A stretch of 64,000 nucleotides of DNA from Caballeronia arationis. GTDB taxonomy: Bacteria; Pseudomonadota; Gammaproteobacteria; Burkholderiales; Burkholderiaceae. Where the stretch lies: contig NZ_FCOG02000011.1 of assembly GCF_001544975.2 (NCBI RefSeq), positions 1 to 64,000 on the forward strand, read 5' to 3'. The notes under the pieces were generated by a model that ran no database searches, was not told the origin of the DNA, and saw only the letters and a list, made by a program, of their open reading frames with translations. The position numbers and the translations under genes were made by a program. Shown here piece after piece: positions 6,227 to 60,458 of the stretch (the stretch's first letter is position 1; every line of letters begins with the position of its first letter).

Positions 6227-6275
6227 ACGGCATAATGCCCAGACCCCGGGAGGAGTCTGGGCTCTTATGCCGTCA
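6227..6275. terminator. bidirectional GACGGCATAA-type terminator
   Basis: Stem GCCCAGAC/GTCTGGGC flanked on the left by ACGGCATAAT and on the right by CTTATGCCGTC. It lies 7 bases beyond the stop of the minus-strand gene ending at 6282. Read on the minus strand the tail is ATTATGCCGTG. It belongs to the family of such elements found at gene ends across the window. Confidence 0.75.
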
Positions 6276-6281
6276 GTTTGA

Positions 6282-7490
6282 TCAGAGCAAACCAGCGTAC
6301 TCTTTCAGTGCCGTGCGGACTTGTTTCTCGGTTTCAGCGCGGTCCTTCCGTTGTGCATCGGACATCGGCTCGTCGACCACCGTGGCGTCGTAGAGTTTGA
6401 CCATCTCCTGCCAGATCTTGAGCATCGATTTCTGCGTCTCGATCCACACGCCGTACAGGAACTCATGCGCCACGATCACGACGTGGAAGCTGTCCATCAG
6501 CTCGCGAAGATGCTTGACGAACGCCCGTGCCACCGCTTGCTGCGCCACGAGTACCTTGCCCTGCTCGGTTTCCGAGGTCAGCCGATCGATCTTCATCGAC
6601 ACCGTGTTGAGGTGCTCCGTCATCTGCTCCAGTGCCTGCTGGGCCTGCCGCATGGACCGTGCTGCACCCGCAACTCCAATAAGCGTTTGCGCACTCACGA
6701 CCGTACTCTTGAGCGCCGAGATGTCTTTCGGGATGCTCGCGTACTGTCCAGTATTGACAGATGTCTTAGCCTGCTTGATGGCGTCGTACCGACCCTTGGT
6801 GAGCTCGAGGGCGTTACGTGCCGTCAGACTCGACATCGTGCCGCTACCGTCCTCCTGGGTGCTGAGTTGTGTGTCTAGCTCCCTGGCGAACCCTTCGAGA
6901 TCCTGGTGCATGGCTTGACCCGACGCATCCATCGCCTCGGCGCGCTTGCTTTCCTTCTCGTACCACGCCACCAAGGACGCCACGCCCTTCTCGATGATCT
7001 CCGTGTAGTCGCCCTTGTCGAACGACTGGCTCAGGCTCACCATCGCCTTGCTGTACTCGGAGTTGGCGTCGAGAATCGCGCGCGTTTGTGCTGGCGAATC
7101 CGCCATCAGCTTCGAATACAGATTCTCCTCGTACCGCTGACGGAGGTGTTCCGTTTGGAGGATCTGGGCGAGACGTTCGATGCCATCGGCGAGCTTTCTG
7201 CCCTGCTCTTCCACGGCGCTCAGATGGGCTTCGTCGAACTGCTTGCCGTCGCCTCGCAGCCAGCCGATGAAGCGCTTGATCATCTCGACCGATTTGCGAA
7301 TCAGCTTCCTGATCGTGTCCCACACGGTGCTGACAATGCCCTCGAGAGCGACGCGCGTTCGTTCGCTCTTCGTGCCCCCGCTGAATTGCAACGAAGCAAA
7401 GTGGCTACCGCCGAGCACGGAGTCCGCCTCAAGGGCAATGCCTGTGGTCAACGTACCGCTTTGCATCAACTGACTACGCACGGATACCAA
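6282..7490 (-). CDS. probable internal head (virion) protein
   Basis: About 400 residues, helical and Gln/Ala/Lys-rich. Near the N-terminus GIALEADSV fits the A-x-E prohead-protease motif of phiKZ-like phages, and an analogous ALEA sequence occurs in the protein at 53955-54773. An amphipathic region (TIRKLIRKSVEMIKRFIGWL) follows near residue 65, then long helices with coiled-coil potential. I infer an inner-head protein processed on maturation. The start is unclear: TTG 7490, ATG 7466, or CTG 7520, which has AGAAGG at good spacing and extends a protein-like reading frame upstream with no ATG, GTG or TTG. It is followed by a family-type terminator. Confidence 0.6.
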   Translation of the reverse strand: MVSVRSQLMQSGTLTTGIALEADSVLGGSHFASLQFSGGTKSERTRVALEGIVSTVWDTIRKLIRKSVEMIKRFIGWLRGDGKQFDEAHLSAVEEQGRKLADGIERLAQILQTEHLRQRYEENLYSKLMADSPAQTRAILDANSEYSKAMVSLSQSFDKGDYTEIIEKGVASLVAWYEKESKRAEAMDASGQAMHQDLEGFARELDTQLSTQEDGSGTMSSLTARNALELTKGRYDAIKQAKTSVNTGQYASIPKDISALKSTVVSAQTLIGVAGAARSMRQAQQALEQMTEHLNTVSMKIDRLTSETEQGKVLVAQQAVARAFVKHLRELMDSFHVVIVAHEFLYGVWIETQKSMLKIWQEMVKLYDATVVDEPMSDAQRKDRAETEKQVRTALKEYAGLL

Positions 7491-7568
7491 TGTCGCTAGG
7501 TGCGACTCTAGGGCGAGCAGGTCGCCCTTCTCAAAATCCGCCTTGATGTTCTTGTCTCGGAAATAAGA

Positions 7569-7598
7569 GGGAAACAGGAGTACAAGCGCCTGTCTCCC
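7569..7598 (-). terminator. terminator after the SNF2-like helicase gene
   Basis: On the minus strand GGGAGACAGG pairs fully (one G-U) with CCTGTTTCCC around a 10-base loop, followed by TCTTATTTCC. It starts 58 bases past the helicase stop codon. Its tail begins like the family tail (CTTAT) but lacks the GCCG part. Confidence 0.65.
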
Positions 7599-7655
7599 CT
7601 GGGTATTGATCCGCTTAACCCTTACGGGAAAAGTGAACTTGGGATGGGTTGTTCA

Positions 7656-10844: not shown

Positions 10845-10869
10845 GGCGTCGTCCTATGATAAAAAAACA

Positions 10870-10926
10870 GACTGCATAAAAGGAATTGCCCAAGGGACCC
10901 CTACAAGTGCTAGGGTTCCCTGGGCT
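10870..10926 (-). terminator. terminator after the DnaB-like gene
   Basis: An imperfect long stem (GCCCAAGGGA...CCTA with TAGGG...CCCTGGGC) lies 36 bases past the stop at 10962. On the minus strand the tail reads CCTTTTATGCAGTC, the family tail with one change. The opposite flank is not conserved, in keeping with a one-directional site between two minus-strand genes. Confidence 0.7.
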
Positions 10927-10961
10927 CATCCCTCAACAACGGAACTGCTTGTTACACAAGA

Positions 10962-12536
10962 TTAGGCGGCCTCGTCGAAGGCCCAGAACGGCGTCTCGTC
11001 ATTTGATCCAATCGGACCACCCCCAACCTTCTTGCGTGTCGTGTCCACGCCATTGACGTCGAACAAGATGCCGAACTTCGAGAACGGCAGCACGCAGAAG
11101 AGATCGCGGTGATCGGTCTGACCGATGATGCGGTGCTTGCCTCGCTGGATCGTGAGGAAGCTTTCGTTGTTACTCTTCTCGATATGGATGAAGATCTCGA
11201 GGTCCACTTCCTGGTCGATCTGTTTACAGCCGCGGTAGTAGCCCTTGCCAACCAGTTCCTTCACAAAGTCGCTCTTGCCGTCGCGGATCATCTGCTTAGC
11301 GTCGGTGGAGAGCTGGTGCGGTGTGACGAAGGCGATCTTGCGCGGCGAGCAGAAGTTACGAACGCGGCGGTAGAGGTCCTGCACGTCAGTGCCGGTCGGT
11401 CCTTGCAGGCAGCCCGTGGTCGGCATCATCGGCAGGTAGTCGACCATGCACATATGGATCTCGTAGCCATCCGCTTCCAGCTCGAGAATCTTGTTGCACA
11501 GATCCTTGTACGTCCACTCCGACGGATTGACGCGCAACATCTTGATCTCGTAACCGTTAACCCGCATGCGCTCCTGCACGTATGCGGCGATCTTCGTGAT
11601 GTAGGCGTCCAGCTCTTCCGGCGACATCGCCTCGAAGTCTTCCTTGGTCTTCTTGACGATCTCGGCTTCGCGGCCATCGAAAGCCATCAGCACTTCGTAC
11701 ATGTATTGAAAGTTCAGCTCGAGATCGTCCTCAAAGGAGATCCGGAGCAAGAGCGGCTTCTTCGTCGCGTCGATCATTTCCGGCTCATTGAAGAGCGCCA
11801 CGCCGATAAACGCGCCGAGGCTGAAGCCCGTCTTGAAGTTGTGCTGCAGTGCGCCGATCACCGTTTGCTGGCCGCGACGAAAACCACCACGCAACATTCG
11901 GTTCACGCCCTGCCAGCCCGTCCTCAAAATCCCACCACCGTTCTCGGTCTTCTGCACTTCGCTGAAGATATGCTTCACTTCGTCGATACGTGACAGATCG
12001 ACCTCGGCGACGATCGCCGGATCCTTCGCGGTTGCATCTACCTGATACGGTTCCAGCTCCGAGCACACCTCAGCCACGAACTGCTTCATATTCGTGACCT
12101 GCGTGCGGTTGAACCGCAGCTTGTTTGACGCCTGGAAGATGATCTCCTGGATCTTCTGCTCGCGGAAATACTCGTTCAAAGACCGACGCAGATTGACCGC
12201 CGTCTTCTTGATCTTGCTTTCCGTCAATTCCCTTTCGATGCCTTCGACGAACGACTCGTAAAGCTTTTCGTCCTCGCCGCAATCCACCTTCAATTGTTGA
12301 AGTATTTCGTTCGGCTCGTACTCGTGATCGAGCGGGGCTTCGCACATTGAGAGCGCGGTCTTCTTCAGAGCAGCGGTTATATCGCGCTCATGATCCAGAC
12401 CGATGGCCAGTTGTGGTTCCTTTATCTCGTTGATGATGCTCCTGACGAGAGCCCCCGAATTCTCATGGGCGCCCGGCAGCTGGCTCTCGCGGAACATGAG
12501 AGTGATGCACTTAACCAGCAGCAGTTTGTGGTTCAT
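10962..12536 (-). CDS. DnaB-like replicative helicase
   Basis: 524 residues. A helical N-terminal region of about 190 residues is followed by a RecA-fold core: GALQHNFKTG at 228-237 is the Walker A loop (Lys235-Thr236), the unusual Asn/Phe-Lys-Thr form I associate with giant-phage DnaB proteins. CMVDYLPMMPTTG resembles Walker B/motif H2, FVTPHQLSTDAKQ the sensor (H3) motif and VDLEIFIHIEKS the following strand. It would unwind DNA at the phage fork as a hexamer. Its start has no strong ribosome-binding site; ATG at residue 14 is an alternative, but the residues before it look like native protein. It shares its strand with the SNF2-like helicase downstream. Confidence 0.75.
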   Translation of the reverse strand: MNHKLLLVKCITLMFRESQLPGAHENSGALVRSIINEIKEPQLAIGLDHERDITAALKKTALSMCEAPLDHEYEPNEILQQLKVDCGEDEKLYESFVEGIERELTESKIKKTAVNLRRSLNEYFREQKIQEIIFQASNKLRFNRTQVTNMKQFVAEVCSELEPYQVDATAKDPAIVAEVDLSRIDEVKHIFSEVQKTENGGGILRTGWQGVNRMLRGGFRRGQQTVIGALQHNFKTGFSLGAFIGVALFNEPEMIDATKKPLLLRISFEDDLELNFQYMYEVLMAFDGREAEIVKKTKEDFEAMSPEELDAYITKIAAYVQERMRVNGYEIKMLRVNPSEWTYKDLCNKILELEADGYEIHMCMVDYLPMMPTTGCLQGPTGTDVQDLYRRVRNFCSPRKIAFVTPHQLSTDAKQMIRDGKSDFVKELVGKGYYRGCKQIDQEVDLEIFIHIEKSNNESFLTIQRGKHRIIGQTDHRDLFCVLPFSKFGILFDVNGVDTTRKKVGGGPIGSNDETPFWAFDEAA

Positions 12537-12564
12537 GTTTGTAAATACTGTGAGAAAGCTTTTT

Positions 12565-12600
12565 CTGGGTCATAGAAAAGACCCAGTGACTTTTTTATTT
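12565..12600 (+). terminator. Rho-independent-type hairpin in a divergent promoter region
   Basis: CTGGGTC/GACCCAG with an 8-base loop, then TGAC and TTTTTTATTT on the plus strand. It lies between the minus-strand DnaB-like start (12536) and the plus-strand gene at 12632. It may block read-through toward the virion genes or act as a leader attenuator. Confidence 0.6.
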
Positions 12601-12631
12601 ACTGGTCCCTCTATTCGCTGGAGCAAACAAA

Positions 12632-13253: not shown

Positions 13254-15467
13254 ATGACCACTCTGTTCGCAAACAAGAACCGCGGCGGCGTGCAGCCGAT
13301 GACACAACTGGACACCATCGTCCAATCGCTGCGCCATGAACAACACGATCGCGGCGTCGCATTCGCTTCCCCGCAAGTCTCGCGTGCTGCTTTCGCGATG
13401 GAAGGCATCAACGACACGATGCAAAGCGAGCTGAACAGCTCGGTGCAGTCGCTGAACGCCGCTCTCGAGCACATCGTGTCGGAACACGGCCTGCGCGACC
13501 TCACGCAAGCTCAGAAGGACGCAGCGCTGGCAGCAGCGACGCTCTCCGGCGACATCACCGGCGCGCTGCACGCGACCATCAAGCACGATCGCGTCTCGAC
13601 GGAAAGCATGAAGTTCATCGTCCCGCAGGGCGAAGACAAGATGCTCGAGCGCATCAAGCCGGCGCTGGAAGCGTACGACGAGAAGGAAAACAAGAACGCG
13701 GTGGTCTACTCCGTCGCGTACAACATGCAAGCCGCTCGCCAGGATGAATTCGGCGAAGCGTTCTACCCGACCGTCGTCGTGACGCCGGACCAGGTGGGCT
13801 ACACCGTTTCGATCCGCTTGATCGAGGTGTACAACGAAACGAAGCGTCCGATCTCGGGCGCACCGACGGCCAACTTCGGCCGCCGCAACATCGTGCAGGC
13901 TGTCATCGATCCGACGATCCTGCGCAACGACCAGACGAAAATCGTCCCGGTCGTGAACGACGAAGCGACCGCAGCTGGCTATTTCGTGCCGGCAGCAGCT
14001 GTCGCACCGTACAGCGTGATGCTCTCGGACGACACCGCTGTCTCGACCGCACCGCTGGCAATCGGCAAGAAGTTCTCGCTGCTCGGCATCTCGCAAACCG
14101 AAGCGCTGCTCGACACCGGCCTGCTCGACGTCACCGACGCGATCGACACGCAGCTCGCGCTCGACGCCGTGTACGTTCAATTCACGACGGGTGGCGCGAC
14201 GCCGACGACGGAAGTCGTGAAGTTCAACACCCGCCAGCTGCCGCTCGCGACGTTCAACTTCGCGGTGCAGGCGACGTACCGTCAGATGAACCTCCAGTAC
14301 GAGACCCAGTCTCTGCTGATCGGCCCGAACACGGTTCTGGCTGACGGTTCGGCATCGACGATCCTGTCGGCAATCGTGTCGGGTGGGTACGAAGCGCGCA
14401 TTGGTTTCTCGGTGTTCGGCTCGATCAACCTCGAACTCGGCAACACCGAACTGAACGCATCGAGCGTGTCGGTTGCAACGATCAAGAACAACAGCGATGC
14501 GACGCTGGACCTCTCGACGGGCACGGGCGCGACCCTGGCTGCGCTGATCGCGAACGCGAAGGTCATCGGCTACGATCTCGACGCACGTCGTACCAACAGC
14601 AACCGCCGTCAGCGCGGCCAGCTGCTGAACACGAACTTCTACAACCAGGTGTACACGGTGCCGCTGCTGGCTCCGATCACCATTCCGCGTCCGATGCAAA
14701 CGGGCGACTCGAACGATTCGTCGGATCTGGCTGCGCTCATCACCACGACGCGCATTCGTACGTCGAACGCAGCGGTCGACGAGCTGCTCCGCGTGCAAGA
14801 CCTGCTCGCAGAAACGACCAGCGCACTGAACACGTCGGCCACGCCGAACAGCGCGCAAGATACGCCGGAAATCATGGGCGTGTCGCGTTTCGTGGTTCAG
14901 CCGGCTTACATGTACAAGCCGCTGAACATCAGCACGTCGCTCGACTCGCTGTCGGCTCACCAGCGTGCTGCGGACATCCAGGCTACCCTGGTGAACGCAC
15001 TGCGTGACATGGCTTACACCCTGTACGTCCAGTCGGGCTACAAGGCAGCAGCCGATGCACTCGCTGGCGGCGTCGCACCGGTTCCGACCGTGATCATCGG
15101 TACGGATCCGTACATCGCGCGTTACCTGATGGTGACGGGCGACCTGCGTACGCTGGGCGGTCAGTTCGACGTGAAGATCGTGTCGACGCTCAACGAGCGC
15201 ATGTCGGGCAAGATCGTGATGTCGTTCGGCGACTTCTCGGCAGAGCGTGCTGGCGTGCCCAACCCGCTGCACTTCGGCAACATGGCGTGGAAGCCGGAAT
15301 TCACGGTCGTGCTGCCGATGATCCGCAACGGCGCGCAGTCGAAGGAACTGACGGTCCAGCCGTCGTTCCTGCACATCACGAACCTGCCGGTGATGGGCGT
15401 GATCGACGTGACGGGTATCAGCGCGGCTGCGGCTTCGAAGGTGCCGGTCAACTTCCATACCGTCTAA
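13254..15467 (+). CDS. major capsid protein
   Basis: 737 residues, the size and pattern of phiKZ/PaBG-type major capsid proteins. An N-terminal arm of about 117 residues is helical and ends near VSTE (115-117), which fits the S/A/G-x-E cleavage rule of the phiKZ-like prohead protease; AME at 48-50 is a second candidate. The mature part opens with SMKFIVPQGEDKMLERI and contains ARQDEFGEAFYPTVVVTP, which I associate with this capsid family. The codon choice is strongly biased to G/C third positions, more than in its neighbours, as expected of the most highly expressed gene, and it creates a long antisense open frame. It has its own terminator at 15550. Confidence 0.8.
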   Translation: MTTLFANKNRGGVQPMTQLDTIVQSLRHEQHDRGVAFASPQVSRAAFAMEGINDTMQSELNSSVQSLNAALEHIVSEHGLRDLTQAQKDAALAAATLSGDITGALHATIKHDRVSTESMKFIVPQGEDKMLERIKPALEAYDEKENKNAVVYSVAYNMQAARQDEFGEAFYPTVVVTPDQVGYTVSIRLIEVYNETKRPISGAPTANFGRRNIVQAVIDPTILRNDQTKIVPVVNDEATAAGYFVPAAAVAPYSVMLSDDTAVSTAPLAIGKKFSLLGISQTEALLDTGLLDVTDAIDTQLALDAVYVQFTTGGATPTTEVVKFNTRQLPLATFNFAVQATYRQMNLQYETQSLLIGPNTVLADGSASTILSAIVSGGYEARIGFSVFGSINLELGNTELNASSVSVATIKNNSDATLDLSTGTGATLAALIANAKVIGYDLDARRTNSNRRQRGQLLNTNFYNQVYTVPLLAPITIPRPMQTGDSNDSSDLAALITTTRIRTSNAAVDELLRVQDLLAETTSALNTSATPNSAQDTPEIMGVSRFVVQPAYMYKPLNISTSLDSLSAHQRAADIQATLVNALRDMAYTLYVQSGYKAAADALAGGVAPVPTVIIGTDPYIARYLMVTGDLRTLGGQFDVKIVSTLNERMSGKIVMSFGDFSAERAGVPNPLHFGNMAWKPEFTVVLPMIRNGAQSKELTVQPSFLHITNLPVMGVIDVTGISAAAASKVPVNFHTV

Positions 15468-15549
15468 GGACGGGTTGGCGGGTGAGTGACGTAGGTGACT
15501 CGTTTCACTAGGGTCACCACCCGGAGCAGCAAGAAGGTCACTGGGGCTG

Positions 15550-15597
15550 ATGGTCCTCCTGGGTTCTTCGGGACCTGGGAGGACCATTTATGCCGTT
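15550..15597 (+). terminator. terminator of the major capsid gene
   Basis: ATGGTCCTCC pairs with GGAGGACCAT, with extra pairing around a TTCG tetraloop, followed by TTATGCCGTTTG. The left flank is not conserved, so only the plus-strand tail is present, as expected where only plus-strand transcription needs stopping. Confidence 0.8.
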
Positions 15598-16034
15598 TGC
15601 TTTCTTTTCGCTTTCGAAGCGGCCTTACCTTCGGAGAGAACAACGCCTTTTGCGATCGAAGGAGGACTTCGAAGCCTCCCTTATTAATAGAGCCTCGGAG
15701 TTGAAAACGATCCGATTCTAGACCTTTTTAATCAGGACAAGCCGGCTACCGATCTCCTAGTGGAAATCGTTGGCTTCTTCGAAACTACAGTTCACGGGAA
15801 GTTTGAGAATCTCATTAGTACCGGGGGGTAGTGTAGGTGTACGGGGCTGACGCCCCTAATACCCTACTATGACACCTAGCTATGAGAAATCCTGGCAGGT
15901 GGTGACTAAAATATAGGCCGACCGCGGATTAGGTCCCGGCCAAAAAATTGGCGAGAAATTTTCTCTATAGGGGGGTCGCAGGGGGCCAGACTCGAATGGT
16001 AGGCTCACTCTCACACGCACGTTTGGAGAGGGCA
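15598..16034 (+). other. 437-bp gene-free region with several stem-loops (possible structured RNA)
   Basis: No open frame with a credible start. Several pairings occur: AAGCC...ACCGAT with ATCGTTGGCTT (15739-15774), TAGGTGT with ACACCTA (15834-15879) enclosing GGGGC/GCCCC with a TGAC loop, and GGCCGAC with GTCCCGGCC (15917-15942), followed by an A-run. This could be a small RNA, a processed leader for the next gene, or a degraded gene. AT-rich CTAAAATATAGG at 15906 could be a promoter element. Confidence 0.4.
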
Positions 16035-16490
16035 ATGGACCATCTTCTGGAGCAAATCGCAGCAATCATAGCGATCGCAACCGGAGTGGGGATGTTCAAG
16101 CGAGAGCACCTCAGAAACTGGTTCACTCTCGGACGTTTCGTACTCAGCGTGGCAGTCGTGGTTGGGTGTGTGTGGGCATTGGTTATTCTGGCGATCAGCG
16201 GCAACGACATCAGTCATTACACGCGTGCGGACATATTACGTACTGTAATCGCCGCCGTACTTCTGGGTGGCACGGCCTTCCTGACGGTGCGTGATCTATG
16301 GAAGCCAAGGATGCGCACCCCTGAGCAAAGACGCAACCGCAGGGTCTTCTACACCTGGATGCTGCTGTGGGTGATCGGATCCTCGGTGCTGATGCTGGCG
16401 TATTTGAAGTTTGGCGTCTGCGCCGACATTCACAATGCCGAGTCTGAGCCAATGGGCTACTCGCAGTCTTGGTGGTGCCGGCATCTCTAG
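16035..16490 (+). CDS. multi-pass membrane protein
   Basis: 151 residues from the ATG at 16035, chosen for the upstream GGAGAGGGCA; translation before it is not protein-like. Three or four membrane segments: about 5-20 (QIAAIIAIATGVGMF), 35-57 (VLSVAVVVGCVWALVILAIS), 70-90 (VIAAVLLGGTAFLTV) and 110-132 (WMLLWVIGSSVLMLAYL), with basic loops (RTPEQRRNRR) between. Hydrophobicity and size fit a holin-like or inner-membrane phage protein; neither can be shown. It is flanked by terminators on both sides, so it appears to be an isolated transcription unit. Confidence 0.6.
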   Translation: MDHLLEQIAAIIAIATGVGMFKREHLRNWFTLGRFVLSVAVVVGCVWALVILAISGNDISHYTRADILRTVIAAVLLGGTAFLTVRDLWKPRMRTPEQRRNRRVFYTWMLLWVIGSSVLMLAYLKFGVCADIHNAESEPMGYSQSWWCRHL

Positions 16491-16580
16491 CCGTCGTCGA
16501 CACCGCGACTAACCGATGACCGATCTGGCTGCGTAGCTCAGCCTTGGAAAGCCTTCGTAACGGTGGCCTACTCATAGTCT

Positions 16581-16611
16581 GCGACGGCACGGGCCGTCGC
16601 TTTATGCCGTC
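16581..16611 (+). terminator. TTTATGCCGTC-type terminator
   Basis: Perfect 7-base-pair stem GCGACGG/CCGTCGC with a 6-base loop and the tail TTTATGCCGTC, 90 bases after the membrane-protein stop. Only the plus-strand tail is conserved. Confidence 0.8.
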
Positions 16612-16620
16612 TCAATCAAA

Positions 16621-16635
16621 TCTCGGTTACATATT
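16621..16635 (+). promoter_or_regulatory. candidate promoter motif TCTCGGTTACATATTA
   Basis: A near-identical 16-base string occurs at 61005-61020 (one base differs). Both are gene-free: here just after a terminator and 124 bases before a plus-strand gene, there between divergent genes. The ATATTA core recalls AT-rich early promoters of phiKZ-like phages. This is an inference from two copies. Confidence 0.4.
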
Positions 16636-16758
16636 ACCTACCCGACGAAGGAATAAAGGAGTTTTAGTTTCAATCGAATTTGGGCGGGAGGAAATACGGA
16701 GACGCGGCAAGCAACGCGATTAACCAATCGCGAGAAATAAAGCAATGGGATTTTCTCT

Positions 16759-17934
16759 ATGTCACTTGACCATTTCATTCCCGATACGTTGTTTGGGAAG
16801 GTCGAACTTTGTCAGGTCGGCCTGGGTCATTTAAGCGCAAATCGGAAAGACGAACTATTCGAGCGGAAGGTTCAGTATTACAACTTCCTTTCCAGACCGG
16901 TTACCGTCCTTGAGCGGTCCGGGATGCAGTGGGAGTTCCCCGCGATCCCGGACGTACAGCGCGCGAGCTTCGCTATCCAGACGGAATGGAAGATCCACAA
17001 GGACTTGCATCGGGAGTTCTTCGCATGGATCAAGGTCGTTCGGGAAAACGAGTCGAAACTGATCCGAGACCTGCGGGAGATTGCGGCACGCCATCAACCA
17101 ACAGTATACGAACAGTACCTGCTCTTCAGAACCGAGCGCACTTTGTCGTTAGACGACCTGGAGCGGTATCGGGGCGAGATCTATGACCATGACCACGATG
17201 TTGTCGTCTCGCTCTACCGTGGGCTTGAATCGGGTCCACATCCTTTCTCTGAAATGGGACGTGCACTGGCCCTATTAAACGAAAATGCAACACGCAATGA
17301 ACAGGAGACATTCTCGGAAACGATCAAGATCGTGGATAATACCGGTCAGTTTGGCGACCGCTTTATTAATCGAAATGGCAATATCTACCGCATCCAAGGC
17401 ACGCACGACTCTTCGCGTGAGGAGGGTGTATGGGTGATCCGCAACAAGCCGTTCGAAAACACACGTCTACCTTCGACTGTTGGCTGGCGGCGTTACACGC
17501 TGCAAGAGGCCGACGAACTACTCGATCTATACAAAACTTACGCAGAAGCTGAACATTGTGGTGATGGGGAAACAAAGCGTAAGCAAGAGCTGCTCGCACA
17601 AGAGGAGCGGTTGATCCGTGCCCGCAACGAGCTCAACGAGCAGAAACTCGCCCACCAGAAAGCACAGCACGAATGGGAACTCGAAAAGACCAAGCTCCAG
17701 CGTGAATTCGAACGCCAGCAGGCCGCATACGCTGATGAAGCGTATCGGACCAAGATGGAATTGGAGCGTTTAAAGGCCTATTACGAGCGGCAAATGTACG
17801 ACGCGAAAATGAGCCAGGAAAGAAGAAAAGAAACTTCTGAATGGCTCAAGCAACTGCCGGCCATTCTCGGTGCATTAGGCGTTGCCTGGCTTGCGTATAA
17901 AACCGCGACCGTCAATGCAAATAAACAAGCATAA
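16759..17934 (+). CDS. coiled-coil protein with a C-terminal membrane anchor
   Basis: 391 residues. The first 260 residues form an unrecognised globular region (LSANRKDELFERKVQYYNFL; later FGDRFINRNGNIYRIQGTH). Residues about 270-365 form a Glu/Lys/Gln-rich coiled coil (ERLIRARNELNEQKLAHQKA, LEKTKLQREFERQQAAY). A single hydrophobic segment, PAILGALGVAWLAYKTAT, ends the protein, so it looks tail-anchored in the membrane with most of the chain in the cytoplasm. It may attach a phage structure to the inner membrane; the role is unknown. It lies between a terminator and the RNA polymerase beta-like gene. Confidence 0.65.
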   Translation: MSLDHFIPDTLFGKVELCQVGLGHLSANRKDELFERKVQYYNFLSRPVTVLERSGMQWEFPAIPDVQRASFAIQTEWKIHKDLHREFFAWIKVVRENESKLIRDLREIAARHQPTVYEQYLLFRTERTLSLDDLERYRGEIYDHDHDVVVSLYRGLESGPHPFSEMGRALALLNENATRNEQETFSETIKIVDNTGQFGDRFINRNGNIYRIQGTHDSSREEGVWVIRNKPFENTRLPSTVGWRRYTLQEADELLDLYKTYAEAEHCGDGETKRKQELLAQEERLIRARNELNEQKLAHQKAQHEWELEKTKLQREFERQQAAYADEAYRTKMELERLKAYYERQMYDAKMSQERRKETSEWLKQLPAILGALGVAWLAYKTATVNANKQA

Positions 17935-17958: not shown

Positions 17959-19602
17959 ATGGATGCCGAAATCGAACGATTGATGGACAGTCACATGCCG
18001 AAGATCAACCCTCAGATTGCTGAGGGTCTCGCTGTTTCTCATATGCAGGAAATTCACGTCGTCAAGTACATCGATTCGGTCTTTCGATCCGCAGCTAAGG
18101 GCTTCCCGGAGGGATTGACGTACGAAGGCTGCAAGCGCTGTACGCCGCCGGAAGAGCTCAACGAAGCGTCCCGCAAGAAGGGCAACAACAAGCGCATGTA
18201 TGACGTCGCGCAGTCGGACTTGTACATGGTGAACTACATGTTCACGTATCGCGGCGAGAAGATCGATCGCTACATGTACCTGCCGTTCGTGCGGGATGCG
18301 GGCTCGATCTTCGTGAGTGGTTCGCGTTTCAACATCGTGCCGGTTCTGTCCGATCGTGTGATCAGCGTCGGAACGAACACAGTCTTCGTGCGGCTCCTGC
18401 GTGACGTGTTGACGTTCGAACGCGTGCCGCAGAACTTCAATGCGAATGGTCAGCGCGAGCAGGCAAACGTTGCCTGGGCCATGATCTATCACAAGTCGGC
18501 GAAGATGAAGAAGATCCGCCCGACCGTGAAGGCGCATTCGACCATGATGCACTACTTGTTCTGCAAGTACGGCCTCATGAAAACGTTCGAGATGTTCGGA
18601 GGATGCACGCCAGTGGTCGGCGGGGTCGAGATCAACGAGCACACCTATCCTGCGGATCAGTGGGTCGTCTGCAGCAGCACGCAGATCAAACCGAAGGGCT
18701 TCGGCCGTGCTCTGTACGAACCTTCGAACCTGCGCATCGCGGTCAGGCGCGAGGACTATGAGCGCACGATGGTTCGGAACATGATCGGCGGATTGTTTTA
18801 TGTCGTCGATCATTTCCCGTCGCGCGTCAAGCCGGAGTACGTCAATAACACCGACCCGAAGTACATGGACAACACGCGGACCTGGATCATCCTGATGGGT
18901 CACGTGCTGTTCTCCGGGAGCCTTCCTGAAGGTCGTCTCGCCGATGACGTCGAAGATCACATCCGCTCGCTGGACGAGTACATCGATAGCATCGTCCTGA
19001 TGAAGTTCAAGGAGATCGGGATCGCTGCAACGGATCTCTATCAGTTCTTCGCGATCGTGATCGAGAAGATCAGTGACTGGCTCTTCAAGGCGTCGGACAA
19101 GGTCAACAGCCTCTACGACAAGGAGCTGTCGATCCTCTACTTCGTGCTGAAGGACATCACCACCGAAATCTTCAAGCTGTATTTCAAGTTGAAGGCCGCG
19201 TCGAAGAAGGAACTGACGAAGAAGGACATCGAGGACCGGATGAACAAGACCATCAGTACGGGTCTGATCTACCGGATCACGAAGCAGCACGCGGAAGTGG
19301 TCAACATTGCGAGCTCGGGCGACAACAAGGCGACCAAGATCACAGGCTGGATGATTCCGCAATCGAGCAGTTCACGTCAGGGCGGCCGTAAAGACCGCGC
19401 GAACCTCGACGATCCGACTCGCTTCCTGCACGTCTCGTTCGCCGAAGTCGGCGGATACAGCAATCTCCCGAAAGCAGCACCGACCGGCGACTCCCGCATC
19501 TCGCCGTGGGTGCAACTCGACCCGTCTGGTCTCGTCCTGCGGAACCCGCGCCTTGCCCCGCGGCTCGATAGGATCCAGGAAGAAATCAGGCGTCGGCGCT
19601 AA
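17959..19602 (+). CDS. putative RNA polymerase beta-like protein (N-terminal half)
   Basis: 547 residues after AAGAGGAAAGAAGAAT. Several stretches follow the order of landmarks in the N-terminal half of multi-subunit RNA polymerase beta: DAGSIFVSGSRFNIVPV (compare the GxFxINGxEKV region), DDVEDHIRSLDEYIDSIV (compare the DDxDHxxNKRVxLAG region) about residue 323, then STGLIYRITKQHAEV and RFLHVSFAEVGGYSNLP in place of the fork and the RxxHPTHYGxICPxETPEG region. Conserved Gly/Pro in that last region are largely lost. Giant phages encode split, divergent polymerase subunits, so this is plausible but rests on visual alignment; otherwise it is a protein of unknown function. Confidence 0.45.
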   Translation: MDAEIERLMDSHMPKINPQIAEGLAVSHMQEIHVVKYIDSVFRSAAKGFPEGLTYEGCKRCTPPEELNEASRKKGNNKRMYDVAQSDLYMVNYMFTYRGEKIDRYMYLPFVRDAGSIFVSGSRFNIVPVLSDRVISVGTNTVFVRLLRDVLTFERVPQNFNANGQREQANVAWAMIYHKSAKMKKIRPTVKAHSTMMHYLFCKYGLMKTFEMFGGCTPVVGGVEINEHTYPADQWVVCSSTQIKPKGFGRALYEPSNLRIAVRREDYERTMVRNMIGGLFYVVDHFPSRVKPEYVNNTDPKYMDNTRTWIILMGHVLFSGSLPEGRLADDVEDHIRSLDEYIDSIVLMKFKEIGIAATDLYQFFAIVIEKISDWLFKASDKVNSLYDKELSILYFVLKDITTEIFKLYFKLKAASKKELTKKDIEDRMNKTISTGLIYRITKQHAEVVNIASSGDNKATKITGWMIPQSSSSRQGGRKDRANLDDPTRFLHVSFAEVGGYSNLPKAAPTGDSRISPWVQLDPSGLVLRNPRLAPRLDRIQEEIRRRR

Positions 19603-22015: not shown

Positions 22016-22082
22016 AAGGCTGCGTGGGGGGCGTTCGCTCCCCACCGTATGCCGGCTTGTTGACAAGAAAAAAGGGAACAAA

Positions 22083-23099: not shown

Positions 23100-23146
23100 T
23101 GACCGCATAAGTGCCCAGGTCTAGGACCTGGGCTTTTTTATTTTTG
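23100..23146 (+). terminator. terminator with U-tract and partial family flank
   Basis: GCCCAGGT/ACCTGGGC stem with TTTTTTATTTTT on the plus strand. The left flank TGACCGCATAAG matches the family flank GACGGCATAA with one change. It shows both a standard U-tract and the family signature. Confidence 0.8.
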
Positions 23147-23159: not shown

Positions 23160-23480
23160 ATGGACGACATCCATCCGGAAGTCATCCTGTCTCAGCAATT
23201 TCGTCAGCTTCTCCTGAATCTGCATATCGACGAAAAGCGCTATATGCAGTTGCTGGACGAGTACATCGCTGACCCTGCGAACGGTATCCCCAACGTTCCG
23301 ATGGCTCAGATGCATGCTCGCACCACCTTGGGTCACGCACTCGCCAGTCCCGCTATGAGTTGGCTCACGTTCTGCAAAGGCCTGAAGGTCCTGCAGATCA
23401 AGATGGCGAGGTTCTCGCTCACGACCCTCGACAGCGTCAACCTCCATTGCCGGACCTCGATCGAGTTCAGGCTTGAATGA
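23160..23480 (+). CDS. hypothetical protein
   Basis: 106 residues, ATG preceded by GTGGAGATCCA. The sequence alternates hydrophobic helices (EVILSQQFRQLLLNLHID, EKRYMQLLDEYIADPANG, MSWLTFCKGLKVLQIKM). No domain recognised. Its TGA is the first base pair of the left flank of the next terminator, so gene and terminator overlap. It is convergent with the portal-like gene. Confidence 0.6.
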   Translation: MDDIHPEVILSQQFRQLLLNLHIDEKRYMQLLDEYIADPANGIPNVPMAQMHARTTLGHALASPAMSWLTFCKGLKVLQIKMARFSLTTLDSVNLHCRTSIEFRLE

Positions 23481-23528
23481 CGGCATAACCGCCCAGACCT
23501 CCTTGCGGGGGTCTGGGCTTTATGCCGC
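23479..23528. terminator. bidirectional terminator between convergent genes
   Basis: GACGGCATAA, then stem GCCCAGAC/GTCTGGGC, then TTTATGCCGC. Tails are present on both strands, serving the plus-strand gene ending at 23480 and the portal-like gene ending at 23559. Confidence 0.85.
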
Positions 23529-23558
23529 GAGGCCGAACTATTTTTTTTGTGCTTCCGA

Positions 23559-31610: not shown

Positions 31611-32291
31611 ATGACAAGCTTGTTGAAGATGGCCCTCGAGGAAGTCGCCAACGGCGAAGCCTTCGAGGAGATCGAGTACGTGTTTTATGCTCGCCTCCCG
31701 GAACCCGTCAAAGTCCCGACGGGCTGGGGCTTCTCGGAGCACCAGGAGCAGTGGGAATTCAAGATCCCGAAGACAGATCAGAACGGCGGCCAAGGCGGCA
31801 TCAGGATCAGGAAGACGCAGCGGATCAATGTCCGCGGACAGATTCCGCCCGAGTACGTGATGACGACCAAGGTGCGACGTTCCGATGGGAGCAACGAGGA
31901 AGTACCGATTCCGACCACCGTGGCGAACTTCGAACAATTCCGCATGCTTTCGGATCGCGGAATGATCAAGGATCGCTACGAGTATGTGATTTCGGATGAC
32001 GCGGTGCCGCCCGGCCTGGGGAGCGGTTTGAAATGGGAGGTCGACTTCTTCCTCAAGCCCGACGGCACGTACTTCCCGTGGGTCAAACTCGACCTTGAAG
32101 TGCGTAAGCGGACGAAGGACGTCGCCGATCTGCCTGCGTTTCCGTTCCAGGCTCTGGAGTGGATTCTCAAGCAGACGGGCGAGCGCAGTGCCGAGGAAGA
32201 AACGAAGCTGCGCGGAATCTACGAAGAGTGCTTCTTGGCGAAGAATTGCTACGCGACCAACTTCGTTCGCCAGCAACCTGTAGAAACATGA
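31611..32291 (+). CDS. CYTH-domain protein (triphosphatase-like)
   Basis: 226 residues. The ordered charged residues of the CYTH/triphosphate tunnel fold are visible: EIEYVFYARL near the start, GIRIRKTQ (Arg65, Arg67), YVMTTKVRR (Lys87), EEVPIP (Glu96-97), RYEYVIS (Arg122), KWEVDFF (Glu143, Asp145) and WVKLDLEV (Glu163). Family members hydrolyse thiamine triphosphate, inorganic tripolyphosphate or RNA 5'-triphosphate, or make cyclic AMP. Which substrate is used here is unknown; the opening E-x-E-x-K motif is altered to EIEYV. It directly follows the lysis genes and ends at a terminator. Confidence 0.65.
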   Translation: MTSLLKMALEEVANGEAFEEIEYVFYARLPEPVKVPTGWGFSEHQEQWEFKIPKTDQNGGQGGIRIRKTQRINVRGQIPPEYVMTTKVRRSDGSNEEVPIPTTVANFEQFRMLSDRGMIKDRYEYVISDDAVPPGLGSGLKWEVDFFLKPDGTYFPWVKLDLEVRKRTKDVADLPAFPFQALEWILKQTGERSAEEETKLRGIYEECFLAKNCYATNFVRQQPVET

Positions 32292-32341
32292 CGGACATAA
32301 CGCCAGAGTGGAACAAGTCCACTCTGGCTTTTATGCCGTCT
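32290..32341. terminator. bidirectional terminator between convergent genes
   Basis: GACGGACATAA, a 9-base-pair stem CCAGAGTGG/CCACTCTGG with loop AACAAGT, and CTTTTATGCCGTC. It begins within the stop of the CYTH gene and ends 33 bases before the convergent stop at 32374. Confidence 0.85.
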
Positions 32342-32856: not shown

Positions 32857-32915
32857 GCTAGGGCCCTATGAATGAGCGTTACGAGGGTTCTTTGTGTATT
32901 TCCCTCATAGAAATC

Positions 32916-32962
32916 ACGGCATAAAGCCGGAGGGGCTGCCCCGCTCCGGCTTTATGCGTCAC
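32916..32962 (-). terminator. terminator downstream of the Hint-domain fibre gene
   Basis: On the minus strand the stem GCCGGAGcGGGGCAGCCCCTCCGGC is followed by TTTATGCCGTG. The other side carries a weaker copy (TTTATGCGTCAC). It sits between two minus-strand genes, 14 bases past the fibre stop. Confidence 0.8.
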
Positions 32963-35495: not shown

Positions 35496-35522
35496 GATGT
35501 TTTCCTCCCACCAAGCGCCGGC

Positions 35523-36932: not shown

Positions 36933-36951
36933 GTTTCCTTTACTCCGTCGA

Positions 36952-38358: not shown

Positions 38359-38478
38359 AAGGGTTGACTCCGGCCAGAGCACAAAGCCCGGCTTGAATAC
38401 ATACGGCGACCACGCCCAAGCCCACGCTGGGCGCACCTGCCGCCTAACGTGGGTCTTGAGGGGATCGGAAAAGACGAT

Positions 38479-42083: not shown

Positions 42084-42137
42084 AACGGCATAAGAGCCAG
42101 AGAGGACGCGAAGTCCTTTCTGGCTTCTATGACGTCT
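42084..42137. terminator. bidirectional terminator between convergent genes
   Basis: ACGGCATAAG, imperfect stem GCCAGAgAGGAC.../GTCCTTtCTGGC, then CTATGACGTC. The minus-strand tail (CTTATGCCGT) matches the family; the plus-strand tail has two changes. Confidence 0.8.
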
Positions 42138-45654: not shown

Positions 45655-46620
45655 ATGGGTCCTTCCCAACTCAAGTTTTTCAGCAACGGCATCGTCGCCG
45701 CGAACAAGCCTCTTTCAAGCAACGAAATCGAAGTCACCCCTATCGAAAAGCTGCCCTTCCTGAACGGCGAACTGTCCGATATGGGTAGCCAGATCACCGC
45801 GTCAGGTGCGGACAACACGGGCTCGGCCTACAAGACCCAGGTCGCGTCGTCCAACACGGTGAAGGCAACGTGGCTCAAGCTGGGCGCGGGCAACCGCATG
45901 ACAGCACCGGACGTGCGCCGCGGCGCGACGGTGGCGCTTTATCAATTCGCGGATGAGGACAAGTACTGGTGGACGACGCTGACGGACGACTCCGCGCTGC
46001 GTAAGCTGGAAACGGTCGTCTGGGCGTTCAGCGGAACGGCTGACGAATCACAGGGCACGGATGCGACCAACAGTTACTACATGGAAGTGTCGACGCACCA
46101 GGGATTGATCACCCTGCATACGTCGAAGGGCAACAGCGAGCCCTACGGCTACGACATCCAGCTCAGCACGAAGGAAGGCTACTTCCGCATGCAGGATGAC
46201 ATCGGCAATTACCTGATCCTGGACTCGACGCAGAACCACTTCGAGTTCGGCAACGGTGATCAATCGGTGCTACAGATGCTGAAGCAAAATCTGGCCATGG
46301 CGACGCAGGAATCGATCTCGATGAAGACCAAGAACTTCAACCTCGAGGCGCAGACGTCGAATATCACTTCCAACACGCTCGGCATCAAAGCCACCACCAC
46401 GCACAACGGCGACTTCACGGAGAACGGCGCGATGGGGCTGAACGGCGACATGACCACCGCGGCGGGCGGCGGCGGTAGTGGAGGAACGGCAGGCAGCGGC
46501 AAGATCACGATTGCTGGTCAGACGGAGCTGCTCGGCGATATGGATGTCAAGGGCAACGTCTCGGCGGTCACCATTGCGGCGACCCAGTCGATCACGGCAC
46601 CGAACCTAAAATACAACTAA
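45655..46620 (+). CDS. baseplate spike-like protein
   Basis: 321 residues. The first 120 residues read like an OB-fold spike domain (SAYKTQVASSNTVKATWL, RRGATVALYQFADEDKYWW). The later part has short repeated strands (NFNLEAQTSNITSNTLGIKA, IQLSTKEGYFRMQDD) that resemble the triple-stranded beta-helix of gp5/gpV-type puncturing spikes. A Gly/Ser-rich loop (AAGGGGSGGTAGSG) lies near residue 270, and the chain ends with QSITAPNLKYN. It would form the trimeric needle tip of the contractile tail. It lies in the tail-fibre region. Confidence 0.55.
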   Translation: MGPSQLKFFSNGIVAANKPLSSNEIEVTPIEKLPFLNGELSDMGSQITASGADNTGSAYKTQVASSNTVKATWLKLGAGNRMTAPDVRRGATVALYQFADEDKYWWTTLTDDSALRKLETVVWAFSGTADESQGTDATNSYYMEVSTHQGLITLHTSKGNSEPYGYDIQLSTKEGYFRMQDDIGNYLILDSTQNHFEFGNGDQSVLQMLKQNLAMATQESISMKTKNFNLEAQTSNITSNTLGIKATTTHNGDFTENGAMGLNGDMTTAAGGGGSGGTAGSGKITIAGQTELLGDMDVKGNVSAVTIAATQSITAPNLKYN

Positions 46621-46621
46621 G

Positions 46622-46664
46622 CGACATAAAGCCCAGGGGTCTTCCCCTGGGCGCTTATGCCGTC
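46622..46664. terminator. bidirectional terminator between convergent genes
   Basis: CGACATAAA, stem GCCCAGGGG/CCCCTGGGC with loop TCTT, then GCTTATGCCGTC. Family tails occur on both strands, two bases before the stop codon of the SPRY-type fibre gene. Confidence 0.85.
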
Positions 46665-53892: not shown

Positions 53893-53899
53893 CGACGCA

Positions 53900-53951
53900 C
53901 GTCATAGAAGCCAGAGAGGGCCTCGCGGTCCCCTCTGGCTCTTATGCCGCT
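53900..53951. terminator. bidirectional terminator between convergent genes
   Basis: ACGTCATAGA, stem AGCCAGAGaGGGC.../GTCCCCTCTGGCT, then CTTATGCCGC. The stem arms resemble those at 42084 (GCCAGAGAGG), but the loops differ. Confidence 0.8.
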
Positions 53952-53954
53952 TGC

Positions 53955-56395: not shown

Positions 56396-56408
56396 TCAAG
56401 AGGTCCCT

Positions 56409-56735: not shown

Positions 56736-56740
56736 ATCGT

Positions 56741-56765
56741 GCTGCCGCGCTCAATGTGCGGTAGC
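56741..56765 (+). terminator. hairpin, possible terminator
   Basis: GCTGCCGC pairs with GCGGTAGC (one G-U) around a 9-base loop, followed by GCACGTTAATAAG, 5 bases past the stop at 56735. No U-run or family tail, so weak as a terminator. Confidence 0.5.
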
Positions 56766-56801
56766 GCACGTTAATAAGATTACTAGAGAATTTTTACTGC
56801 C

Positions 56802-58037: not shown

Positions 58038-58460
58038 CGCGCCGGCTACCGACATTCCCCCGAGACAAAGGAGCGAATTCGGCAGGCCAACCTTGGTAAG
58101 ACGATGTCAGAGGAGTCACGAAGCAGAATGAGCGCGTCTCGTACTGGCAAAAAGCTCTCCGCTGAACATGTCGAGAACGTCAGGGCAAGCCTAACTGGCA
58201 GGAAACACACCGAAGAAGCGAAAGCTCGCATGAGTGTTGCGCAGCGAAGCGTTTCATGGTCCAGAACGACGCGAAGCGATGCGATGCGACAGAATCTTGC
58301 CGCAAACATCACCGGTCAGAACAAGCACGGATCTACGCCGGTTACGATCAACGGAGTCGAGTACCCCAGCATTCTCGCCGCGTCGCGAGCGCTAGGCGTT
58401 CCGAACCAAACGCTACATTACCGGTTAAGCAAGGGCTACTATGACGACCAAGAATCGTAA
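58038..58460 (+). pseudogene. downstream half of the GIY-YIG nuclease (NUMOD-like repeats) after the in-frame amber
   Basis: The same reading frame as 57630 continues with about 140 residues: RAGYRHSPETKERIRQANLG, then SEESRSRMSASRTGKKLS and TEEAKARMSVAQRS, the repeated DNA-binding motif seen after GIY-YIG domains, and finally GVEYPSILAASRALGVPNQT, a NUMOD1-like C-terminal motif. No other stop interrupts it, so the break is recent or an error, or read-through occurs. The ATG of the next gene (58441) lies inside its end. Confidence 0.7.
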
Positions 58461-59124
58461 GATCACTGAGGATTTCATCCTGAAGTACATCGGAAAACTG
58501 ATTCCTGGGTCGGAAACGAATGCCCAGTTGTATAAGGACCTGTTCGCCCGGATGGACGACAAGGCGTTCGATGACTGGATGGGCAAGCTCGCTCGCAAGG
58601 AAATCCGGCTGGCGATCATCGCGCCGAACCTCTCGAAGGAGAAAGTGACCATCCCCAACAATCTCGCCATCGGCGACGAGCTGGGACACAACTTCTTCGA
58701 GCGACTCTGGATCGACAACGGCAACGACATTCCGCCGTATCTCTCGCCGGTAAAGTATCTCGTGGGCGACATCACGCTGCGCCGTCAGGCACAGGTGCTG
58801 GTGAAGAAGATCTCGATTCCCGAGGACAATCGCAGCGTCGACGACATGACCGGCCAGCCTTCGGGCAAGTCGGAAGCAAGCAAGATCTCCTACCCGGAAA
58901 CGCAGGTGCTGTCGGCACTCAAGCTCGACAAGAACATCGCGGAAATGATCAGCTTGCGCGGCGGCGATACACAAGGCTTTAACGCAATGAACGACAGCTT
59001 CGCTCGTACGGGCGGAGCGTCACAGAAGGCCATCGAGCATCTGCGCGGTGGCGTGAAATCCACGCAGGCACTGAACACCATCCTAACGGCAATGCACTAT
59101 CAGGTGTCAGGCCTCGTAACCTAA
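58441..59124 (+). CDS. putative RNA polymerase beta C-terminal-like protein
   Basis: 227 residues. A stretch in the second half resembles the C-terminal end of RNA polymerase beta, which pairs with beta-prime: LSPVKYLVGDITLRRQAQVL (compare KLHHLVDDKIHARSTGP), then VDDMTGQPSGKSEASKIS and YPETQVLSALKLDK (compare [31 protein letters not shown]). The catalytic lysine region of beta is absent, so if related it is a separate fragment of a split subunit, as is known for giant phages. Much shorter than those reported. It begins inside the preceding GIY-YIG gene. The assignment is by eye and may be wrong. Confidence 0.35.
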   Translation: MTTKNRKITEDFILKYIGKLIPGSETNAQLYKDLFARMDDKAFDDWMGKLARKEIRLAIIAPNLSKEKVTIPNNLAIGDELGHNFFERLWIDNGNDIPPYLSPVKYLVGDITLRRQAQVLVKKISIPEDNRSVDDMTGQPSGKSEASKISYPETQVLSALKLDKNIAEMISLRGGDTQGFNAMNDSFARTGGASQKAIEHLRGGVKSTQALNTILTAMHYQVSGLVT

Positions 59125-59135
59125 GGAGACGGAGC

Positions 59136-59669
59136 ATGAGTCTCCTACCCAACGAACTCATCGAAACCGGCGAAGTCTTCGTGGCAAGCATGCAGCACGT
59201 GCTAGCTAACTGCATGCGCATGAGCGAAGAACGTTACGGCAAGCTTTCGAAGTTCGTGTACTCAATGGTGCTGGCTGAAAAGCCGTACATGATCGCAAGC
59301 CCGAAAGGCGTTCAGCATGCGATCGAACTTGTTTTCGAAGATGAAGTGATCCGCGACTTTGTCTTCACGTTGGGCTTCACCTTCCTCGCGCGTTGGGGCG
59401 GTTTGGGTCGCTATAGCGAGTTGGTGCAAGCCCTTGCATTTGCAGTAAGTGGGGACGGCAATCCTGTTCGAGGACAGGAATCGCTCGTCATGATGCCCGC
59501 CGAAATCGGGGATCTCTTGCCTGATCCCGAGGGTGTGCTGACTCTCCTTCAACAAAACAAATGGCTGGTGACGCTGTTGATGATCCAGCTGTTCGTTCTC
59601 GTCCCGGAACCTCCGAAGGCGAGCAAACGCAACGTGCAAGACCAAGCGCGCGATACGACTAACCCGTAA
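59136..59669 (+). CDS. hypothetical protein
   Basis: 177 residues after AAGGAGACGGAGC. Hydrophobic helices without an obvious membrane anchor (VFTLGFTFLARWGGLGRYSE, NKWLVTLLMIQLFVLVPEPP); the last 25 residues of this part could be membrane-associated. The C-terminus is basic. It starts 11 bases after the beta-like gene and is likely co-transcribed. Function unknown. Confidence 0.6.
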   Translation: MSLLPNELIETGEVFVASMQHVLANCMRMSEERYGKLSKFVYSMVLAEKPYMIASPKGVQHAIELVFEDEVIRDFVFTLGFTFLARWGGLGRYSELVQALAFAVSGDGNPVRGQESLVMMPAEIGDLLPDPEGVLTLLQQNKWLVTLLMIQLFVLVPEPPKASKRNVQDQARDTTNP

Positions 59670-59680
59670 AGCGTGCGAAC

Positions 59681-60391
59681 ATGGCAGCCAATAAAAAGAT
59701 CGAGACGATTCTGGTGGAGCTTGACTGCTTGCTGGATACACGTCTGGGAACAATCGAACGCATGGGCGAAGAACTCGCCGCTCGCGTTCTGACGCCTGCT
59801 TACCTGGCCAGGGAGCAGGATGTCTTTGACGGCGTCGATCGGGAAGCCTTCCGGCAACTCTATCAAGCCCGTGATGTTGAAACACTGAAGCACTCGAAGG
59901 TTACGGCGCTAACAACTCGGTTTCGCGAACTCACCACGTTCCTGACCGAGATGGCGATCGAGCGTCCCTATTTCGATGGGGTCCAGATTGCTGTAAATAC
60001 GTTTCCGTACGTCCTCGATGCAGCGACGGCAGACGCAATTGGCAAAGCTGTGACGGCTTGGATTGGGGGCAACGTCCCCGTCGAACTCGTCTCTATCCGC
60101 CCTGAGCAACTGACGCCCGCAGTCGTGAAGACGCATTACGCAATGCTGTTCATGTACGAGTACGAAGCCTGGATGAACATGCACGCGGAGGCATTCAAGG
60201 ATACTCGGCTCAATGAGGTCCACCTTATCGCCCCTGCGCTGTACTTCAATGAGAAACCGGACGAGAAAACCCTGAAGTCACTCGTCCGCGACGCGGCTCA
60301 TCCGTTCATTGCGATGACCATGCTCGCCTCGCCACTTGTCGGGCTCGAACTCATCGACATCAGGTATTTCAGCATAGTTTCAGCACCGTAA
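59681..60391 (+). CDS. hypothetical protein
   Basis: 236 residues. The pattern KIETILVELDCLLDTRLGTI and, later, SHVA-like phage sequences such as LTTFLTEMAIERPYFDGVQI and VVKTHYAMLFMYEYEAWMNM recall a family found in giant phages, of unknown function. No signal, membrane segment or catalytic motif. It follows the previous gene by 11 bases and ends at the next terminator, which it faces convergently. Confidence 0.6.
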   Translation: MAANKKIETILVELDCLLDTRLGTIERMGEELAARVLTPAYLAREQDVFDGVDREAFRQLYQARDVETLKHSKVTALTTRFRELTTFLTEMAIERPYFDGVQIAVNTFPYVLDAATADAIGKAVTAWIGGNVPVELVSIRPEQLTPAVVKTHYAMLFMYEYEAWMNMHAEAFKDTRLNEVHLIAPALYFNEKPDEKTLKSLVRDAAHPFIAMTMLASPLVGLELIDIRYFSIVSAP

Positions 60392-60458
60392 GACGACCGG
60401 CATAAACCCCCTCCCACTCCCCGCCCGATTCTTTCTGGGCAGGTTGTGGGAGGAGGTT
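60392..60458 (-). terminator. long hairpin with minus-strand family tail
   Basis: CCCCTCCCAC pairs with GTGGGAGGAGG, with an inner CCGCCC/GGGC(A)GG stem. On the minus strand the tail reads GGTTTATGCCGGTC; on the plus strand the family tail is lost. It lies between convergent stops at 60391 and 60469. Confidence 0.7.

Follow-up and report, generated by a model that had tools for sequence, protein, structure and literature searches.

The non-virion RNA polymerase (nvRNAP) of phage phiKZ starts its late transcripts at the word 5'-TATG-3', whose G is position +1; the excerpts of the source paper report no conservation downstream of this word and term somewhat puzzling the choice of a few late promoters among many TATGs (PMC4666361; this and the other papers are cited here from excerpts). 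In a cryo-electron microscopy study of the same enzyme on an analogue of P119L, a gp123 pocket located under the beta-lobe holds TATG of the non-template strand, with its four bases at -3 to +1 (PMC12809450). AR9, likewise a jumbo phage with multisubunit RNA polymerases, has an nvRNAP that uses a different promoter motif and reads template-strand uracils (PMC7598289), and its transcription is described as terminating at predicted terminators at operon ends (PMC5312081). No description of how transcription is ended by the multisubunit polymerases of nucleus-forming phages was found in the literature passages searched, nor any account of termination by the phiKZ nvRNAP among the titles and abstract openings searched, an earlier description in the key phiKZ papers not being excluded; the excerpts by the LucasX authors list 47 Rho-independent terminators and name no motif. 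Here, we analyzed a 64,000-nt stretch of DNA (hereafter the window), which forms bases 1-64000 of a 143,740-bp phiKZ-like jumbo-phage contig (C275) lying inside a 9.38-Mb bacterial assembly, and in which gene ends carry a stem-loop followed by a tail built on TATG. These hairpin-TATG elements are probably intrinsic terminators for the nvRNAP of the phage itself, and many are two-sided; in them, TATG, the likely promoter word of that enzyme, would largely take the place of the U-run, with a predicted role in pausing.

An earlier note on this DNA had listed eleven gene ends where a stem-loop precedes a sequence close to TTTATGCCGTC; all were inspected, and nine proved clear and followed by a TATG tail, the other two being weaker (table 1). 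Since the exact 11-mer TTTATGCCGTC has just two copies in the window (16601 and 32330), the tail is a consensus and not a fixed string, the wider form of which is TTTATGCCGT[CT]. The word ATGCCGTC occurs 12 times in the window versus 3.8 expected, several of the 12 copies standing outside the listed sites. For the counts that follow, genes were called with our own codon-score script rather than a published caller, hairpins were allowed loops of 3-10 nt, and a TATG was taken as in register when it starts 1-4 nt past the last G:C pair of the stem, that is, when its G lies 5-8 nt past this pair. Hairpins without a gene on both sides, or no more than 40-60 nt from a sequence end, were dropped, and sites 32924, 60392, and 42095 (the last with its TATG absorbed in the stem) fall outside the tallies. 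With these definitions, an in-register TATG is found at 13 of the 28 gene-end hairpin sides of the window versus none of 82 intragenic sides (Fisher p = 1.4e-9), and at 2/12 opposite sides of tandem sites; over the whole contig, the figures are 22/63 gene ends versus 2/196 intragenic sides. The tail is also far from being equally frequent inside genes, an outcome that the earlier note had named as a refutation: 37 places in the contig lie within one mismatch of TTATGCCGTC, of which 27 are non-coding, versus a non-coding share of only 15% for the contig, and 17 of the 37 stand behind a hairpin.

The same signal recurs in phiKZ itself and in most of the related phages that we examined. A survey of giant phages recovered it in FLC9, LucasX, Noxifer, phiKZ, SNUABM_54, and FLC6, and found it not enriched in SPN3US, phiR1-37, and AR9. 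When 4-mers were ranked over the first 10 nt behind gene-end hairpins in eleven sequence sets, TATG came first in FLC9 (38 seen/2.4 expected, n = 79 tails), LucasX (64/5.1, n = 130), Noxifer (33/2.4, n = 96), and phiKZ (41/2.9, n = 99), narrowly first in EL (12/1.9, n = 74), and level with TTAT for first in the window's contig (18/0.6, n = 41). By this ranking, TATG was not enriched in SPN3US, phiR1-37, and AR9, where TTTT leads, or in T4, where TATT leads, and the exact pattern GCTTTATGCCG has zero copies in AR9, EL, SPN3US, phiR1-37, and T4. Counted in register, TATG follows 57/150 gene ends versus 4/114 intragenic hairpin sides in phiKZ, and, as predicted, 43/124 versus 3/180 in SNUABM_54 and 11/58 versus 2/160 in the first 120 kb of FLC6, two genomes added later as tests and whose pattern counts had already been seen beforehand; for six genomes, the difference between gene-end and intragenic sides has a p value of at most 1.8e-12 in every case. 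In SPN3US (all but the last 413 bp), the corresponding gene-end count is 1/88, and it is 0/44 in five SPN3US-like loci, whereas the gene-end hairpins of AR9 carry T-runs, with TATG at 1/69. Two further contigs of the bacterial assembly, C339 (74 kb) and C218 (22.6 kb), in which 38/60 and 8/23 proteins match jumbo-phage proteins, also bear TATG tails and may be additional fragments of this phage or of a relative; in the small C339 set, TATG ranks fourth by score and is present in 6/7 tails.

This distribution extends to 80 IMG/VR loci around relatives of the phiKZ gp123 protein, where TATG follows 206/695 gene ends versus 29/1514 intragenic sides. After removal of the window's contig and of 12 near-duplicates, 67 non-redundant loci remain, 61 of which show the tail, and TATG (175/593 gene ends versus 21/1268 intragenic sides) is first among the 4-mers tested, beating TTTT (90 gene ends versus 20 intragenic). 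The 23 EL-like loci, a set which contains EL itself just as the SPN3US-like set contains SPN3US, have TATG at 27/177 gene ends versus 2/334 intragenic sides; in these EL-like loci (L260-L282), TATG is enriched behind gene-end hairpins, but it is spread over offsets 0-8 with no single register. Across the 206 IMG/VR sites, TATG is followed most often by C (78%), C (72%), G (67%), T (59%), C or T (39% and 38%), and T (49%), and the four positions that precede it are most often occupied by T; in phiKZ, of 37% G+C, the tail takes the form TATG[TC][TC]GT. In eight of ten sets, the G of TATG most often lies 6 or 7 nt past the last G:C pair, the other two being C218 (5) and EL (9).

Such sites resemble the intrinsic (Rho-independent) terminators of bacteria in that a G+C-rich stem-loop comes soon past the stop codon with a T-rich stretch right behind it, but they mostly lack a long U-run, in place of which a word resembling TATGCCGT[CT] stands at a favored distance from the stem. 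TTTTT is found behind only 4/63 gene-end sides in C275, 8/108 in FLC9, and 9/167 in LucasX, so that the run of at least five U of a canonical intrinsic terminator is generally absent. One could nonetheless regard them as ordinary terminators with a short U-run (TTTAT), in which ATG and CCGTC reflect drift or base composition, and the prevalence of T before TATG, together with the plain T-runs present at some sites, goes in this direction. We hold this to be quite unlikely, given that TATG outperforms TTTT in the non-redundant loci, that C, C, and G follow TATG as often as they do although the search did not demand them, that the tail is present in phages of 37% as well as 54-58% G+C, and that tails are kept more than stems.

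This last point comes from a comparison of 76 reciprocal-best gene pairs between C275 and FLC9, in which a site is present in both members in 17 cases, in one only in 6 and 6, and in neither in 47 (p = 1.4e-7). As the 17 shared pairs were picked for a TATG in both members, only the bases after TATG and the two-by-two table are informative: agreement is 3.7/5 in the former, versus 4.1/9 in the last nine bases of the stem. The earlier view that the tail is kept while the stems differ is therefore borne out at these orthologous ends. The arms of two-sided sites are roughly complementary (GACGGCATAA ... TTATGCCGTC), and our finder took TATG into the stem in 51/155, as would be expected if the whole were an extended inverted repeat forming a longer stem or a DNA cruciform; this is, however, highly improbable, because the same extension is kept at one-sided sites (339 one-sided, 191 two-sided) and because the two tails of a site agree at 1.81/5 positions versus 2.23/5 when re-paired, with 1000 of 1000 re-pairings at or above the observed value (155 sites), which gives no indication that a longer stem is selected for. 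In fact, tails paired as they occur at a site resemble each other less, over the seven sets, than re-paired ones, as if matching tails were avoided.

As published work identifies TATG as the late-promoter motif of phiKZ, a promoter reading of the tails also needed testing. Here, the hairpin would end one transcript and the TATG behind it would be a working late promoter that starts the next one or recycles the polymerase just released, a bacterial polymerase being able to remain on DNA past termination (PMC6978322). Sense sides are indeed favored overall at tandem hairpins (TATG at 155 sense versus 97 opposite sides, n = 509, seven sets), and divergent gaps are not wholly devoid of the element (6/50 sides in register over seven sets, 3/8 in phiKZ). 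Yet, in these seven sets, TATG stands on both sides of 55/138 convergent hairpins and on one side of 39/138, that is, at 94/138 in all, compared with 4/25 divergent and 27/838 intragenic hairpins, and the convergent copies would drive antisense RNA if they were promoters; in the IMG/VR loci, a single divergent side of 32 has TATG. Hairpins also keep close to the preceding stop codon but not to the following start: among 149 tandem sense sites from six genomes, 99 have a hairpin beginning no more than 20 nt past the upstream stop, and 9 have one ending no more than 20 nt before the next start (2/8 and 1/8, respectively, in the window's contig alone). Moreover, the sole plus-strand TATG in the phiKZ gap between dnaB and gene 119, which we assigned as the probable P119L by position and motif rather than from a paper, has neither a scored hairpin nor CCGT, whereas the gene-end tails share the four letters of the late promoters but sit behind gene-end hairpins and carry a conserved CCGT extension, for which the excerpts on the published promoters give no counterpart (PMC4666361). 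On account of the tight distance to the upstream stop and of the excess of convergent over divergent placement, the sites fit termination better than initiation, as judged from their positions, and the promoter reading appears unlikely.

Two statements of the earlier note on placement are to be qualified in the light of these counts. Tails on both sides at most convergent pairs are seen at 6 of the 15 convergent hairpins of the contig, 2 others having one tail and 7 none, with a finder that misses some; and the tie to the direction of transcription holds in most genomes and fails at the tandem hairpins of phiKZ, where TATG is on the opposite side in 23/98 and on the sense side in 20/98, unlike in FLC9 or SNUABM_54. 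These opposite-side copies of phiKZ might stop antisense transcription.

A signal read in RNA rather than by the polymerase, for instance for 3'-end processing, stability, or mRNA export in nucleus-forming phages, would account for sites that adjoin gene-end hairpins and are mostly directional. SPN3US and its close relatives are nucleus-forming phages, though, and lack the signal, as counted above; besides, such a role does not explain why the tail coincides with the four-letter motif of the polymerase itself or why a certain distance from the stem is preferred, which makes it rather unlikely. Conversely, the proposal of the earlier note that the signal is read by the phage's own or a modified RNA polymerase agrees with terminator-like, mostly directional sites in a giant phage that has an RNA polymerase of its own, although the note had missed that TATG is the late-promoter motif. 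Because the core of the tail consists of the letters at which late transcripts of the phiKZ nvRNAP start, one motif is likely used by an enzyme of this type both for starting and for stopping.

On this basis, we tentatively propose one word for start and stop, used genome-wide throughout the lineage: a phiKZ-type RNA polymerase would stop when its promoter pocket engages TATG anew as the hairpin forms. An elongating nvRNAP meeting TATG would have the non-template strand re-captured by the gp123 pocket and would pause; the hairpin would then form just behind the paused polymerase and the RNA be released around U-A-U-G(CC), while CCGTC would be recognized in the DNA lying downstream and convergent genes would each use one copy of the tail on either side of the shared stem. 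The promoter-pocket register predicts an RNA end in ...UUUAU or ...UUUAUG, and plain hairpin release an end further on, in ...UUUAUGCC. Re-capture is the simplest model in that the same word stands behind hairpins in the phiKZ lineage and not in AR9, whose nvRNAP has another motif. Early operons of phiKZ were defined here by the block TATATTAC, which we take to be the phiKZ early block, and their 21 ends carry TATG tails less often than the others (4/21 versus 41/82 elsewhere, p = 0.013 uncorrected). Early operons being transcribed by the virion polymerase (PMC10612078), this difference favors the pocket model. The nearest known behavior is the sigma70-dependent pausing at -10-like sequences, as at lambda pR' (PMC7876045), where a promoter word met during elongation is likewise re-captured by the promoter-reading part; the difference is that re-capture is proposed here for a beta-lobe pocket, at gene ends, and tied to a hairpin and to release.

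Several observations weigh against this interpretation, beginning with the divergent sides and the phiKZ tandem hairpins described above. An in-register TATG is missing from some 55-70% of the gene-end hairpin sides in the six main genomes, in part because the hairpin finder is loose, and in EL the in-register signal is weak (5/89, p = 0.14), its TATGs being out of register. TATG as a promoter motif is shown for phiKZ only, and in divergent gaps it has no strand bias, being about as numerous as its complement. The divergent gap of the window that separates dnaB from the gene-119 orthologue (12537-12631) has no plus-strand TATG, so that late transcription of this phage may start from a different word at this place; of the three gene-119 orthologues found, those of FLC9 and Noxifer have an upstream TATG and that of the window has none. 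The conserved CCGTC is without counterpart in the published promoter consensus. In Escherichia coli, RNA is released 7-9 nt past the stem, and with a similar release the RNA end would fall in GCC, slightly beyond the promoter register. Finally, among the 14 residues of the TATG pocket named in the excerpts of PMC12809450, gp123 homologues keep 6 in the window, 7 in LucasX, 8 in FLC9, 9 in SNUABM_54, 9 in Noxifer, 6 in SPN3US, and 4 in EL, counts which do not part the TATG-using phages from SPN3US.

As far as our literature search reached, the link between a terminator tail and the promoter word appears to be new. The hairpin-TATG class shows where many of the TATGs of phiKZ-like genomes sit, and its tails let the ends of transcription units be drawn from sequence in uncharacterized giant phages. 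Should the pocket indeed be reused, initiation and termination would be linked in one protein site, an idea directly testable since the phiKZ nvRNAP has already been purified and its structure solved.

Table 1. Hairpin-TATG sites and reference genes of the window
Feature	Position	Strand	Details
Two-sided terminator	6226..6274	both	stem-loop 6237-6262; + tail TATGCCGTC from 6266; - tail TATGCCGTG at 6226-6234
Weak site downstream of DnaB gene	10870..10925	-	stem-loop 10888-10925; tail TTTTATGCAGTC 9 nt from stem
DnaB gene	10962-12536	-	
Major head protein gene	13254-15467	+	
One-sided terminator downstream of major head protein gene	15550..15597	+	stem-loop 15550-15587; TATGCCGTT
Stem-loop followed by TTTATGCCGTC	16573..16611	+	stem-loop 16581-16600; minus-side TATG without extension
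Homologue of phiKZ gp123 (beta-like nvRNAP subunit)	17959..19602	+	27% identity
One-sided terminator absent from the earlier list	22024..22056	+	stem-loop 22024-22045; TATGCCGGC
Partial copy of the earlier list	23101..23139	-	stem-loop 23113-23133; minus side TATGCGGTC, plus side plain T-run
Two-sided terminator	23479..23529	both	stem-loop 23491-23518; TATGCCGCG (+), TATGCCGTC (-)
Two-sided terminator	32290..32340	both	stem-loop 32300-32330; TATGCCGTC (+), TATGTCCGTC (-)
Site between two minus genes	32915..32960	both	stem-loop 32924-32952; TATGCCGTG (-), TATGCGTC (+)
Two-sided terminator	42084..42136	both	stem-loop 42095-42125; TATGACGTC (+), TATGCCGTT (-)
Two-sided terminator	46620..46664	both	stem-loop 46631-46652; TATGCCGTC (+), TATGTCGCT (-)
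Two-sided terminator	53898..53951	both	stem-loop 53909-53940; TATGCCGCT (+), TATGACGTG (-)
Weak site 60392, interrupted stem	60395..60456	-	minus-side TTTATGCCGGTC; adjoins end of minus gene 60469-60975; judged by eye, unscored

Two regions around these sites are poor in called genes. The 16581 site lies in a 1.4-kb stretch without a called gene (15468-16923), where a 180-aa open reading frame ends at 16490, and the 950-bp gap at 5328-6281, also without called genes, contains two strong neighboring hairpins devoid of TATG tails (6034-6095). With regard to other sequence classes, no known Rfam RNA family matched at gathering score, and the Neisseria DNA uptake sequence, which we take to be GCCGTCTGAA, has no exact copy in the window and 6 copies with one mismatch versus 6.7 expected.

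The window holds a phiKZ-like gene set that comprises a major head protein, a DnaB-like helicase most similar to a protein of Burkholderia phage FLC9 (59.9%), and the gp123 homologue, which matches the PHIKZ123 chain 7ogp_E with an E value of 1.6e-74 and has an identical counterpart on an IMG/VR viral contig. Relatives of this gp123 were found at six loci in bacterial genome records; since the nearest two sit in Paraburkholderia assemblies (81% and 66%), the host of the phage is probably a member of the Burkholderiaceae. Lastly, four successive minus-strand genes at 32976-40746 share virion-structural/tail-fibre families (phrog_2163 and others) and form a paralogous, fibre-like run.

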